Origin: Psychrobacter sp. DAB_AL43B
GTDB taxonomy: Bacteria > Pseudomonadota > Gammaproteobacteria > Pseudomonadales > Moraxellaceae
DNA length: 64,000 bases
Direction of reading: 5' to 3'
Assembly: GCF_900168255.1 (NCBI RefSeq)
Contig: NZ_LT799838.1
Span: 2,852,001 to 2,916,000, forward strand
Both the position numbers and the translations under genes were made by a program. Positions 422 to 7,945 of this stretch are shown one piece after another. The notes beneath the pieces were generated by a model, which saw nothing but the letters and a program-made list of their open reading frames with translations, was not told the origin of the DNA and did not search any database. Positions within the stretch are counted from its first letter, which is position 1; every line of letters starts with the position of its first letter.

Positions 422-844
422 TTAGGCATTTGGCAAGCGGAACAAATATATCGCTACCCCACTACATACCAAGGCTACCGACCATGCCACCCACATCATA
501 TCGGCAGGAATGCTAAAAAATAACATCGTTGTCGATATTGCCATCATTATGGTTGCCAACCACTTCGCGTATAGCGGTACGGCGCGGCGATCTTCCCAAT
601 CGCGGACATATTTACCAAAATATTTATGATTTATCAGCCAAAAATGGAAGCGTCGTGAGCTACGTGCCCAGCAACCTGCCGCCAGTAAGATAAAAGGTGC
701 GGTCGGCATGACAGGTAATAGGATACCAATGATACCCAAGGCAAAAAACACCCAGCCAAATATCAAAAACATCCAACGCACGGTTGGACTGTTATGTTGA
801 TTGGTCTTAGGTCGATAATAAAAAGCTTTCTTTGATTGAGTCAT
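422..844 (-). CDS. DUF454 (YbaN-like) inner-membrane protein
   Basis: 140-residue membrane protein of unknown biochemical role. Four hydrophobic segments lie at about 24-43, 45-60, 95-112 and 117-135. The glycine/proline-rich stretch GIIGILLPVMPTAPF (about 37-51), followed by a charged ARSSRRFHFWL loop, is the signature of DUF454, the family of E. coli YbaN. Length matches the family (about 115-140). It stands alone on the minus strand, between the cold-shock gene and a long intergenic stretch. The ribosome-binding site before the ATG is weak. The family assignment is firm; no function is established. Confidence 0.85.
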   Translation of the reverse strand: MTQSKKAFYYRPKTNQHNSPTVRWMFLIFGWVFFALGIIGILLPVMPTAPFILLAAGCWARSSRRFHFWLINHKYFGKYVRDWEDRRAVPLYAKWLATIMMAISTTMLFFSIPADMMWVAWSVALVCSGVAIYLFRLPNA

Positions 845-2588: not shown

Positions 2589-3674
2589 TTACTCTTCCTG
2601 AGAGTTCAGAATAGACTCCATGATGATATCATTTCTTATTTTTCTCTCTTTTAAGTTATTCGTGCCTTCCTTTGCAGCTATTCTATAGCCATTTTCATAA
2701 GCAGGCTCGTTGTTAAAACCATTTAACTTAAGACACAGTTCAGTTTTATCTAAAGATTCTAAATTATCAACCTTTAACAGAGCGACAAACAAAGAGAACA
2801 TGTTAGCTTTATTAAACCATATAGATTTTTTATCCAGATTCAAATCCAGATAAAAACGAGCAACTCGATTAAAGTTCGTAGTAACCCTATCTTTAAATTC
2901 AAAATCCTCTAAATACGTCTCTAGGTATTCATCCACTTTATCGTTTCGATTATAGAATCCTCCTAAGTATGTTGATACCATATTTAAAGTATATTGAAGG
3001 TTTATTTTCCTTGAAATATCTCTTATGGAAAATATCCGTTTATCCGTCATTAGTTCTTGAAAAGCAATAAATTCAAGTTTGTTATTCCTTGCCCAAACTA
3101 AAAATTCTTTTGGTATATTTGGATCAAGTTTAAAATCTTCACCGTCCATTTCAGAATCATCAATCTCAATCTGCTCACACAAAAACTGACAAACTAACAT
3201 AAAATATGACGATCCATATTCAGAAGCTTTCTTTTCAATCGCCGTCAAAGAATCAGACGTCCTATTAATTCTTTGGAATATGTCTAAAACTCTAGGATCT
3301 GTATTTTTAATATCAAGCTCACATACTGGGATTTCATACTTAAAAAATTCTGATTTCTCTTGCTCATTGAAATCTCTAAAATATCTATTACCTACAGAAA
3401 AATCATTGTTAACAAATGAAACTATTGCATTTGTTCTTTGTTGACCATCTACGACACATGAAGTAGATACCATCTCATTCACATCTATTTCACCCTTAGA
3501 AATAAAAATAAGTGGAAATGGATAACCATCAAGTATTGTTTTAATTAAATCTTTCTTATGTAATTCTCTCCAAACTAAATTTCTTTGGAAATATGCATTT
3601 GTAATTAGATTTCCATTTTTTATGTCACGAACAAGATTTAATAACTGAACAGATCTGATTTGATATGGAATCAT
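2589..3674 (-). CDS. DUF262 (GmrS/ParB-like) domain protein
   Basis: 361 residues. The N-terminal part has the hallmarks of DUF262: FQRNLVW (about 29-35), then a hydrophobic segment with DGYPFPLIF (about 49-57), then the signature DGQQR (76-80). DUF262 occurs in the GmrS half of type IV restriction enzymes and in other defence proteins, where the DGQQR region is linked to NTP hydrolysis. The C-terminal DUF1524/HNH nuclease common in GmrSD fusions is not evident here; the rest is mainly helical, charged sequence. The start codon overlaps the stop of the preceding nucleotidyltransferase gene by four bases (ATGA), so the two are translationally coupled. The gene is clearly more AT-rich than the chromosome around it, which suggests transfer. 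Family assignment firm; role in defence or as a toxin-antitoxin is inference. Confidence 0.82.
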   Translation of the reverse strand: MIPYQIRSVQLLNLVRDIKNGNLITNAYFQRNLVWRELHKKDLIKTILDGYPFPLIFISKGEIDVNEMVSTSCVVDGQQRTNAIVSFVNNDFSVGNRYFRDFNEQEKSEFFKYEIPVCELDIKNTDPRVLDIFQRINRTSDSLTAIEKKASEYGSSYFMLVCQFLCEQIEIDDSEMDGEDFKLDPNIPKEFLVWARNNKLEFIAFQELMTDKRIFSIRDISRKINLQYTLNMVSTYLGGFYNRNDKVDEYLETYLEDFEFKDRVTTNFNRVARFYLDLNLDKKSIWFNKANMFSLFVALLKVDNLESLDKTELCLKLNGFNNEPAYENGYRIAAKEGTNNLKERKIRNDIIMESILNSQEE

Positions 3675-4252
3675 TTATAATCCTTAAAGTTGTTATTTTT
3701 CCACTTACTAAGACCATTGATTTGCTTTTGCTTGAAATTATCTTCAGACATATAAAAGCAACATGATACACCTGAGAAGAGACTTCTGTAGTCTATAGAC
3801 ATTTCATCGAAGAACTTTAACAAATCTTTCTTCAGTTCTATTTCTGGCATGAAATTATAATTAATCATACCCAGGCTTATTCCATATTTGTATTTTTCTA
3901 AATTAGAATTACGAAATAAATGACCTTTTGAATAGTTCCTAGTTTCACTCAATACTCTATTAAAAATATCACAATAAAGCTTGTTATTAATAATAGCTAG
4001 GTCAAGGTCAGAAGATCCTGGATTATAAGATGTTCCTTTATACAAGCTAAATCCTAACTTAGCTGATCCACAAACTAATATATCATTTATAGGTACACTA
4101 AAATTTAGACTGACTCTGTTTAATATATCGTCAGCTACTATTAAATTTTCAGTGAATGCATACGTAGGATGAACCAAAAAGAATCTTCTGACAATATCAT
4201 CTAAAGGAGTATCGTTACTAAGACACTCATCTATTTGTCCTTGATAATCCAT
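3671..4252 (-). CDS. Nucleotidyltransferase-fold protein paired with DUF262
   Basis: 193 residues. The sequence shows a polymerase-beta-type nucleotidyltransferase core: GS at 62-63 in CGSAKLGFSL, and after a 19-residue interval SDLDLAII with Asp82 and Asp84 as the metal-binding pair. A third acidic residue may lie in MPEIELKKD (about 134-142). It is small, like the minimal NTases of toxin-antitoxin and defence modules, and shows no second domain. It is the first gene of a two-gene operon with the DUF262 gene, with an ATGA overlap. Two 14-bp palindromes lie in its leader. The region is AT-rich. The substrate (nucleotide, tRNA end or protein) cannot be told from sequence. Confidence 0.75.
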   Translation of the reverse strand: MDYQGQIDECLSNDTPLDDIVRRFFLVHPTYAFTENLIVADDILNRVSLNFSVPINDILVCGSAKLGFSLYKGTSYNPGSSDLDLAIINNKLYCDIFNRVLSETRNYSKGHLFRNSNLEKYKYGISLGMINYNFMPEIELKKDLLKFFDEMSIDYRSLFSGVSCCFYMSEDNFKQKQINGLSKWKNNNFKDYK

Positions 4253-4318
4253 AATTAACCTTTTTAAGACCTATGAAGAGAATAGAGAGATTGCTCCATA
4301 GCCATTAAGCCCTTTTGT

Positions 4319-4350
4319 ATCTTATATAAGATCTCAATCTCATATAAGAT
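4319..4350. promoter_or_regulatory. Twin 14-bp palindromes, probable operator of the NTase-DUF262 operon
   Basis: ATCTTATATAAGAT (4319-4332) is a perfect 14-bp palindrome. ATCTCATATAAGAT (4337-4350) is the same word with one change. The copies start 18 bp apart, close to two helical turns, and lie 67-98 bp before the NTase ATG. On the minus strand TTATCT and TTATAT, 17 bp apart, could be the -35/-10 hexamers, so a protein bound here would cover the promoter. Autoregulation by a product of the operon is inference. Confidence 0.45.
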
Positions 4351-4440
4351 AATCCTATTTTTACAGCAAGTGTTTTAATAGAAATAGTATCTAAATTTCA
4401 GATCAATATGCATTATTCAAACTTTCAAGTAACCCATAAT

Positions 4441-4463
4441 AAAACCACCTTACAAGATGGCTT
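4441..4463 (-). terminator. Terminator behind the duplicated valS end
   Basis: On the minus strand CCATCT and AGGTGG form a short stem (one G-T pair) with a four-base loop, followed by TTTTATTA. It lies about 28 bp past the stop codon of the valS fragment. It is probably the native valS terminator brought along with that fragment. Confidence 0.5.
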
Positions 4464-4487
4464 TATCTTATTTAGCAAATATAGAAA

Positions 4488-4640
4488 CTACAACGCCTTT
4501 AACTCTTCCATCTGCGCCGTCATGGCGGTCAACTGCCCTTCTAACTCAGCCTGTTTCGCTTTTTCAGCATCGACCACTTCCACAGGCGCTTTACTGACAA
4601 AGCCTTCATTACCCAGCTTACGCGAAATGCTTTCAGCTTG
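4488..4640 (-). pseudogene. valS: Duplicated, diverged 3' end of valS
   Basis: This stretch encodes the last ~50 residues of valyl-tRNA synthetase ([13 protein letters not shown] through MEELKAL and the TAG stop) but has no start and no upstream domain. It aligns without gaps to 4988-5140, the end of the intact valS, at an offset of exactly 500 bp, with about 10 mismatches in 153 bases by my count. Most mismatches are synonymous; one changes Leu to Gln. Homology stops sharply at 4641 and just past the stop codon. The divergence argues for a copy derived from another strain or species rather than a recent tandem duplication. It is probably the scar of an insertion or recombination at the valS 3' end. 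Confidence 0.88.
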
Positions 4641-4641
4641 C

Positions 4642-4968
4642 TTAAAAAAACCATTTAAACCCAACCAAAACCACCACAGTTACAACCAACCCTAACCAAC
4701 CAAATCCCTTTGTACCTTGTACTGGTATCGTCGCATTTATTTCAGGAAATAGAATAGCGCCATACGATACTAGAGGTAATATTATCAGCAAGGTATCAAT
4801 ATGGCGATTCGGTGAGAAGTATGGAGGATTCAAGAATAGATAAATAAGCACATATACCACCATAAATACAGTGGCGAAAATGGCATGCATATCTAACGGC
4901 TCATGACGATTCCAATAAAAATATAGAATCGCCATGTTTAAGAACGCAAGTATTAAGGTTATGATCAT
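4642..4968 (-). CDS. Hypothetical small membrane protein
   Basis: 108 residues with hydrophobic segments at about 1-18, 28-45, 60-76 and 88-106, and short polar loops. It begins 19 bp after the valS stop on the same strand and may be read from the valS transcript; no good ribosome-binding site precedes the ATG. Its last codons (FKWFF, TAA) end exactly where homology of the duplicated valS fragment begins, so its C-terminus may have been cut or created by the recombination junction. No family recognised. Confidence 0.55.
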   Translation of the reverse strand: MIITLILAFLNMAILYFYWNRHEPLDMHAIFATVFMVVYVLIYLFLNPPYFSPNRHIDTLLIILPLVSYGAILFPEINATIPVQGTKGFGWLGLVVTVVVLVGFKWFF

Positions 4969-4987
4969 TATAACGATTACTTATAAT

Positions 4988-7945
4988 CTACAACGCCTTT
5001 AACTCTTCCATCTGCGCTGTCATGGCTGTCAATTGCCCTTCTAACTCAGCCAGTTTTGCTTTTTCAGCATCGACCACTTCTACGGGCGCTTTACTGACAA
5101 AGCCTTCATTACCCAGCTTACGCGAGATACCTTCAGCTTGACCTTTTAACTTATCATATGACTTACCTAAACGAGCCAGCTCAGCGGTTGGGTCAATCAG
5201 TCCTTTCATTGGGACAAGCACGCGTAGCTGTCCAATCATACTTGATGATGATAGTGGCACGTCATCGCCCTCTTTTAGTATCTCTAGGCTCTCGACTTTG
5301 GCAAGCGCTTTAAACTGATTTTTAATACGAGATAGACGCGCATCTTCGTCGCTAGAGATATTTTGTAGCAATACTGGCAGACGCACCGCATTACCCAGCT
5401 TCATCTCGCCACGGATATTACGCACACTAGCGATGAGCTGTTGTAGCCACGCCATATCAGCTTCAACTTGCGCGTTAATTTGCGCATTATCAGTTTGTGG
5501 ATAATCAGCGATTACGATGCTATCAGTATTTTTGCGACCCAATAACGGTGCTATCGTCTGCCAGATTTGCTCAGTCAGATACGGCATGATTGGGTGGCTA
5601 AAGCGTAGCGCAGTCTCTAATACATGGAGCAATACATAGCGAATTTGCGCTTTACGCTCATCCGACACCGAGTCATCATTTAGGCTGGCTTTGGCAAGCT
5701 CAACATACCAGTCACAGTATTCATTCCAGATAAATTCATAAATATCATGGCTGACCATATCGAGACGATACTGAGCAAAATGCTGATGAATATTGGCAAC
5801 CGTTGAGTTTAGGCGACTCATAATCCACTTTTCTGGTAATTCCCAAACCTCTGGATTGGCAGTTTGGTCAATCGCTTGGGCATTGCCTTCTTTATCCACA
5901 CAGTTCATCAGCACAAAGCGGCTGGCGTTCCAGATTTTATTACAGAAGTTACGATAGCCCTCGACACGTTTGAGATCAAAGTTGATATCGCGACCAGTAC
6001 TGGCAAGCGAGGTAAAGGTAAAACGCAGCGCATCGGTACCAAAAGCTGGGATACCTTCTGGGAACTCTTTACGCGTTTGCTTTTCAATTTTTGCCGCATC
6101 TTTTGGATTCATCATATTGCTAGTGCGTTTTTCGACTAACGCTTCTAAATCAATACCATCAATCAAATCGATAGGATCTAAGACGTTACCTTTAGATTTA
6201 GACATCTTCTGACCATTGCCATCACGCACCAGACCATGAACATAAACGGTCTTAAACGGTACTTGCGGCGTGCCATCTTCGTTTTTGACAAAGTGCATGG
6301 TCATCATGATCATGCGTGCAACCCAAAAGAAGATAATGTCAAAACCGGTAACCAACACGCTGGTCGGGTGAAAGGTTTTGAGCACGCGCGGATCAGCATT
6401 GACGTCTGCCCAATCAAGCGTACTAAATGTCCATAGACCGGAGCTAAACCACGTATCAAGGACGTCATCATCTTGGCGTAATTTTACGTCGTCGCTTAGA
6501 TTATATTTTGTGCGCACTTCTGCTTCATCACGCGCCACATAAATCTCACCGGTCGCGTCGTCATACCAAGCTGGGATACGATGTCCCCACCAGAGCTGAC
6601 GACTGATACACCAATCTTGCAAATCAGTCATCCACGACATATACATGTTTTTATATTGCGCAGGGACAAACTCAATACTGCCATTTTCTACCGCGTCAAT
6701 CGCAGGCTTAGCAAGTTTATTGACTGCCACATACCACTGATCGGTCAACCACGGCTCAACGATCGTACCGCCACGCTCAGCGCGCGGGGCTTTAAGGGCG
6801 TAGTCTTCTATTTCCTCTAACCAACCCTGCTCGCCTGCTTGCGCCACTAAAATTTTACGCGCGGCAAAACGCTCAAGTCCAGCATATTCACTTGGTGTGG
6901 TTTCAAGCTCTGGCTCACGCGTTTGCAGGTCAGGATAAACTTCCATCGCTGGTAAAATATTGGCGCGCTCATCAAGGATATTAATGAGTGGCAAGTTATG
7001 ACGACGACCCAATTCATAGTCATTAAAGTCATGGGCAGGGGTGATTTTTACACAGCCAGTACCAAAGTCTTTTTCGACATAATCATCAGCAACGATAGGT
7101 ACAACGCGTCCAGTAATTGGTAAAGTAATCGTTTTGCCAACTAAATGTGCATAACGCTCATCGCTCGGATTGACTGCAACAGCAGTATCGCCGAGTAAGG
7201 TTTCAGGACGCGTGGTTGCTACGACCAGATAGTTTTTACCATCTTGAGTGGTGATATCTTTATCGGTGAAATGATAACGGAAATGCCACAAGCTGCCTTT
7301 TTCGTCATGATTTTCAACTTCTAAATCCGATAGCGCAGTTTGGAATTTAGGATCCCAATTCACCAGACGCTTACCACGATAAATTAAGCCATCATCGAAA
7401 AGACGGACGAACACTTCTTTAACGGCATTTGATAAACCATCATCCATGGTAAAGCGCTCACGCGACCAATCGACCGAGCTACCCAAACGGCGAATCTGAC
7501 GGGTGATATTGTCGCCCGACTCTTCTTTCCATTCCCAGACTTTATCGATGAAGTCTTCGCGCGTCATGTCACGGCGCTTGATACCTTCAGCTTCCAGACG
7601 ACGCTCAACGACCATTTGGGTTGCAATACCAGCATGATCCGTACCCGGTTGCCAAAGCGTATTGTCACCATCCATCCGGTGATAACGCGTTAGCGCATCC
7701 ATAATGGCATTATTAAAGCCATGACCCATATGCAGCGAGCCAGTCACGTTTGGCGGTGGTAGGGCGATAGAGAAAGACTCATCTTTATCAAAGCTCGGCT
7801 TAAAATAACCGCTTTCTTCCCAACCTTGATACATGCCAGCCTCAACCTCAGCAGGATTGTAGGCGTGCTCAAGTTGGCTTAGGGCTGCTTGGATAGATTG
7901 GGTCAGGTTGGTCTTAGTGTTAGTATCGGTATTAGGGTTGCTCAT
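4988..7945 (-). CDS. valS: Valyl-tRNA synthetase
   Basis: 985-residue class I aminoacyl-tRNA synthetase that charges tRNA-Val in the cytoplasm. The HIGH motif reads HMGH (72-75) after PPPNVTGSL. The editing (CP1) domain includes [18 protein letters not shown] appears as QKMSKSKGN at about residue 580. An anticodon-binding domain and a C-terminal coiled coil (the tRNA arm, rich in Lys/Glu/Leu) follow. Length is slightly above E. coli ValS (951). The start at 7945 is chosen because HIGH then falls at the usual distance. No leader attenuator was seen. The final 150 bp are duplicated 500 bp downstream. Confidence 0.98.

Follow-up and report, generated by a model that had tools for sequence, protein, structure and literature searches.

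Several described systems provide the nearest points of comparison for the gene pair reported here. GmrSD, BrxU and SspE combine a DUF262 domain, bearing QR, DGQQR and FxxxN-type motifs, with a DUF1524 nuclease. The portion of a review available to us (PMC10952713) describes NTP binding and hydrolysis by the DUF262 part of BrxU and SspE and connects that part with nuclease control, and the accessible part of the GrwAB report indicates that its DUF262 protein likely senses DNA modification (PMC12137116). PD-T4-2 also contains a DUF262 subunit. Menshen pairs a DUF262 protein with an OLD-like one, and we take the PADLOC families NsnA and NsnB to be its models. Nucleotidyltransferases (NTases) of the MNT type are partnered by HEPN proteins in HI0073/HI0074 and MntA/HepT, where MntA nucleotidylates HepT, and the CD-NTase core of CBASS has three carboxylates and works with a CBASS effector. 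Additionally, DUF262 (ParB)-RiboL-PSP/MAE_28990 HEPN operons are two-gene units of a DUF262 protein and a small protein, as set out in the available part of a 2013 paper (PMC3710099).

Here we describe an NTase-DUF262 gene pair in Psychrobacter sp. DAB_AL43B, whose genome is one contig of 3.31 Mb. The window, by which we mean the whole 64,000-nucleotide stretch of DNA analysed, contains the following features around the pair; we take the gene at 4988..7945 to be valS from its sequence.

3671..4252, minus strand: first of the two genes, NTase-like, 193 aa, with GS at 62-63, D82 and D84
2589..3674, minus strand: DUF262 (GmrSD_N) gene, 361 aa, second gene of the pair, with FQR, DGQQR and FxRxN motifs
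3671..3674, minus strand: ATGA overlap of the NTase and DUF262 genes, four shared bases
4319-4332 and 4337-4350: two 14-bp palindromes, lying 66-99 bases ahead of the NTase start
4482..4640: partial duplicate of the 3' end of valS, sharing 92% identity with 4982-5140
4642..4968, minus strand: 108-aa ORF directly after valS, present in some relatives (L053, L058, L072)
4988..7945, minus strand: valS-like gene, conserved flank of a variable interval
422..844, minus strand: DUF454 gene (Pfam 6.8e-39), the other conserved flank

The two genes form an AT-rich stretch (GC 0.336) and share an ATGA, as the initial annotation had claimed, and translational coupling through this overlap is likely. Across the 22 loci listed, the spacing from the NTase gene to the DUF262 gene ranges from -22 to +12 bases, measured with longest-ORF starts.

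The first gene had been described as encoding a minimal nucleotidyltransferase, and its motifs agree with this description: GS (95/95) and D82 (95/95) are invariant among the aligned NTase relatives, and D84 is kept in 94/95. No third conserved acid is present across these 95 sequences, and 18 residues separate GS from DxD; thus, catalysis by the NTase is not assured. The predicted structure has an NTase-like core, with HI0073 as the best structural match listed, but this match is weak and none of the listed Foldseek matches is significant. Sequence searches of the PDB gave nothing useful. The window NTase matches nothing above the Pfam cut-off, and PADLOC and NCBIfam give no match with an E value of 1 or below. 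Ten relatives were likewise without a match in PADLOC and Pfam except for sub-threshold rows, and the NTase and these ten together found no match better than 0.021 to the PADLOC families as a whole. The family phrog_32008, of unknown function, matches at 2.7e-4. The NTase as part of a named system was rejected by profile (Pfam, PADLOC, NCBIfam), and annotation based on these collections would miss the protein because no model there recognises it.

The second gene encodes a protein that matches PF03235 (GmrSD_N/DUF262) at 2.8e-18; it has no second Pfam domain, and DUF1524 was not found. Its relatives number 963 in total, the best 120 of which were listed, and most DUF262 members of the module are about 330-365 aa long. 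The FQR/YQR, DGQQR and FxR[IL]N motifs are each kept in 44/44 DUF262 relatives, and the DHxxP nuclease motif occurs in 0/44. A hidden nuclease in the DUF262 protein was rejected on these two grounds, and the initial account of a protein with FQR and DGQQR motifs and without an HNH or DUF1524 nuclease stands. The best PADLOC match is NsnA (5.8e-17, residues 5-315), and this profile reaches 1.3e-40 in one relative. As it also matches the DUF262 protein of locus L049, which has no NTase beside it, at 8.5e-32, the NsnA match is not specific. The PD-T4-2 DUF262 subunit gives a weak profile match in PADLOC (1.7e-8). Neither protein of the pair has a DNA-binding domain by Pfam.

The pair thus shares its DUF262 motifs with GmrSD, BrxU and SspE, but no DUF1524 nuclease was found in the module, which has an NTase partner instead. 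It differs from Menshen in that no OLD-like partner occurs among the window's neighbour ORFs, six of which were scanned with Pfam; here the partner is the NTase. DUF262-HEPN two-gene operons occur within the genus as well as on a phage, but in these the HEPN protein stands beside a more distant DUF262 protein and there is no upstream NTase. In MNT/HEPN pairs the partner is a HEPN protein, whereas here DUF262 takes that place, in the window as in 25 further loci, and Pfam detects no HEPN among the window's scanned neighbours. Moreover, HI0073 is a 102-residue chain, whereas the window NTase has 193 aa and a wider GS-DxD gap. PD-T4-2 has the DUF262 subunit in common at the weak level given above; for a counterpart of its second component, PD-T4-2_B, the NTases were searched against PADLOC as a whole, with no good match. 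For comparison with the three-carboxylate core of CBASS CD-NTases, the motifs kept in the NTases of the module are GS, D82 and D84. In keeping with the first impression of a pairing without a named system, the literature searched, which was available in part and lay outside preprints and most subscription journals, yielded no description of an NTase-DUF262 pair. Two-gene DUF262 defence is already a known kind of system, and the NTase as partner appears to be new.

The adjacency of the two genes, suggested from a single locus, recurs across genomes. The NTase lies directly upstream in 26/26 close DUF262 loci with upstream DNA (profile E of 1e-69 or better), and NTase matches were found upstream of the more distant DUF262 genes (1e-57 to 4e-12) in 0/24 loci, the split between close and distant having been drawn after the result was seen. 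The 26 close loci, or 25 when the near-identical L148 and L150 are counted once, comprise the window, 20 loci reached with DUF262 queries and 5 reached with NTase queries. Query A6, which derives from NTase-linked DUF262 proteins, accounts for ten of the 20; the remaining ten were reached by other queries. Among eight scanned neighbours of distant DUF262 genes were five HEPN proteins and one EcoRI-type methylase.

With NTase queries, a DUF262 gene was directly downstream in 5/6 loci. The sixth, on an Aliarcobacter plasmid (L038, 3932-4591), holds an NTase that the profile places in the family (5.4e-21) and that has both GS and DxD; the gene downstream of it encodes a 647-aa DUF4365 protein with no DUF262 profile match and no GQQR. 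The pairing is therefore not strict for the NTase, and the DUF262 side is unaffected by this exception. The NTase-DUF4365 arrangement, spanning 3932-6591, is perhaps a second kind of pair.

Pairwise distances among NTases and among their partners correlate at r = 0.906 over 25 pairs, a value reached in 0/2000 permutations, and the nearest neighbour is identical for the NTase and its DUF262 partner in 14/25. The two genes recur and co-vary as one module. One locus with a split NTase (L155) was left out of this comparison. In that single case (3387-4000) the NTase is broken into two ORFs beside an open DUF262 gene, which could be a sequencing error or the loss of one partner.

The module is rare by its NTase, which occurs in 2/100 genus genomes and 2/369 class genomes, the own genome being included in both. 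Several tblastn searches of plasmids and phages with the NTase gave no match, a scan with query A5 returned only three contigs already found, and a class-wide DUF262 search at 1e-60 found the own genome only (1/321). An order-wide NTase search gave an extra match of 1.5e-4 inside a 560-aa frame, which was set aside as weak. DUF262 matches occurred in 82 plasmid records and seven phage records, three of each being opened. Left out of the pairing count are L021, L022, L023 and L025, which belong to a set of 21 further genus loci with DUF262, and two loci that begin at a contig end (L032, L156); L145, L146 and L149 are the contigs of L044, L043 and L042.

The window pair lies between valS and the DUF454 gene, in an interval whose contents vary in Psychrobacter (L082-L101, L122-L140). 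The valS end gives a long match in 58/60 genus genomes, and just 30 bases in a 59th; the genes downstream of valS vary among genomes, with some cargo common within groups. A DUF454 gene like that of the window closes the interval at <=8 kb from valS in 31/39 sampled regions. Within the window, the valS end forms a 159-bp direct repeat (4482-4640 and 4982-5140), and a second partial copy of 70-153 bases lies close by in 12/60 genus genomes, our own included, as if cargo had been gained by an event duplicating the valS end. No integrase was seen in the window's interval.

Cargo ORFs from 31 Psychrobacter intervals (85 ORFs) jointly match 135 PADLOC families at 1e-10, a number of families and not of matching ORFs, and not of systems either because one protein can match many families. 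The cargo count excludes the 8/39 regions without DUF454 in reach and ORFs <150 aa, and also ORFs resembling the 108-, 132- and 163-aa neighbours in the window. As a control, 85 ORFs were taken from the 111 on the other side of valS, and these match 0 PADLOC families. Among the 25 of 135 families shown are AriA, GajA, Old, PD-T4-6, MkoA and mads genes. Ten cargo proteins were scanned singly: four match PADLOC (a PD-T4-6/mad6-like kinase, an OLD/AriA-like ATPase, a HEC-06/Orf5 protein and ThsB at 4e-99) and six do not. From the cargo matches against the zero of the control, we conclude that the window pair sits at a chromosomal site where defence-type genes gather. More distant DUF262 genes were also seen near valS in two further genomes of the genus (L137, 198-2077; L135, 6146-7744); a 228-aa gene comes after one of the two.

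Elsewhere, on one viral contig (L037, 1754-6361), an ORF that we take to be cytosine-methylase-like from its motif, the NTase, a 502-aa DUF262 protein and an SRA-HNH protein stand in a row, which may be an extended, restriction-like form of the module. Two P2-like contigs (L043, L044) carry the pair between a gpA-type replication protein (phrog_91) and the portal (phrog_68); the gpA-gpQ interval is described as a hotspot of anti-phage systems, where P2 itself has old and tin, in the available part of the source (PMC9122126). Locus L030 has the order phage repressor, module, integrase, and L031 looks similar by layout. Downstream of the pair in L042 is a KAP NTPase with a PADLOC candidate match of 3e-86. 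A 6.2-kb Cronobacter plasmid and an 801-kb Pseudoalteromonas replicon each carry one copy. For Dyella (L002) and genome G541 (L045), no defence or mobile gene was recognised by eye in the stretch seen. Several copies, including that of the window, are thus in defence-type places and the context is not always housekeeping, in line with the candidate defence role that had been suggested.

The module has an operon layout, recurrent pairing, co-variation, conserved motifs and a defence-type location, and it looks like an unnamed defence system because the pair recurs in bacteria and prophages, often at the places of anti-virus genes. Our preferred reading, to which we give a probability of about one half, is that the pair is a mobile two-gene anti-phage module in which DUF262 is an NTP-driven sensor and the NTase its output. 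The two proteins would be made together and most likely form one complex. DUF262 would bind and hydrolyse NTP through its QR/DGQQR pocket, acting as sensor and switch as in BrxU and SspE, and the small pol-beta-like NTase would take the place of the DUF1524 nuclease as output enzyme. Infection would release or activate the NTase, which may then transfer a nucleotide onto a cellular or phage target, so that phage growth stops. The NTase beside DUF4365 in Aliarcobacter suggests that another partner is possible, as an output enzyme might have.

The main alternative, less likely in our view, is a reversal of these roles: DUF262 would be the effector, and the NTase, as antitoxin or regulator, would nucleotidylate it as MntA does HepT, keeping it silent until infection. 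Being the upstream gene in every close locus, the NTase occupies the place of the antitoxin in several type II pairs (PMC3710099, available part), and the same 2013 paper calls ParB-type partners nucleases. HI0073, the best though weak structural match, is the MNT protein of such a two-protein pair. However, the DUF262 protein here is without a recognisable nuclease domain, and the HEPN neighbours of 5/8 distant DUF262 genes suggest that DUF262 is often the controlling partner. The initial suggestion made the NTase the effector and DUF262 the sensor or antidote; the NTase-first order and the nearest structural match would suit the reversed roles too.

That the pair is a toxin-antitoxin module mainly maintaining mobile elements, in which phage defence plays a secondary part or none, seems unlikely to us. 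A couple of small overlapping genes found on prophage contigs, on a 6.2-kb plasmid and within a variable interval of the chromosome would suit such a module, as would the palindromes at 4319-4350, which are possible operators. The palindrome pair scores above all 60 shuffles and is unique in the genome, allowing up to 2 mismatches. Yet no similar pair precedes the 15 other copies of the module examined, so a module-wide operator was rejected, neither protein has a DNA-binding domain by Pfam, and copies lie in defence hotspots. Upstream of two other copies, an inverted repeat in L027 exceeded all 60 shuffles and is terminator-like, and one in L045 was equalled by 1/60. A sigma-70 scan showed no excess (7 sites against a shuffle mean of 13.4).

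Quite doubtful is a minimal nucleotide-signalling defence, in which the divergent NTase would make a nucleotide product, or attach one, and the NTP pocket of its DUF262 partner would read it. DUF262 may then be nucleotide receptor and switch, in a two-gene unit with no recognised effector domain. Modification-dependent restriction, with the NTase as accessory subunit and the nuclease from elsewhere, is very improbable. The row of genes in L037 and the likely sensing of modified DNA by the GrwAB DUF262 protein (PMC12137116, available part) point towards such a system, but these neighbours occur in L037 only, among the few loci with neighbour domain scans, and none of them is in the window.

The Psychrobacter valS-DUF454 interval is a place in which to seek further defence genes. 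If our preferred reading of DUF262 as sensor and the NTase as output is true, NTases would join DUF1524 nucleases, OLD-like proteins and HEPN proteins as outputs paired with DUF262. The NTase-DUF262 pair would then be a small system whose two roles are separable by point mutations.
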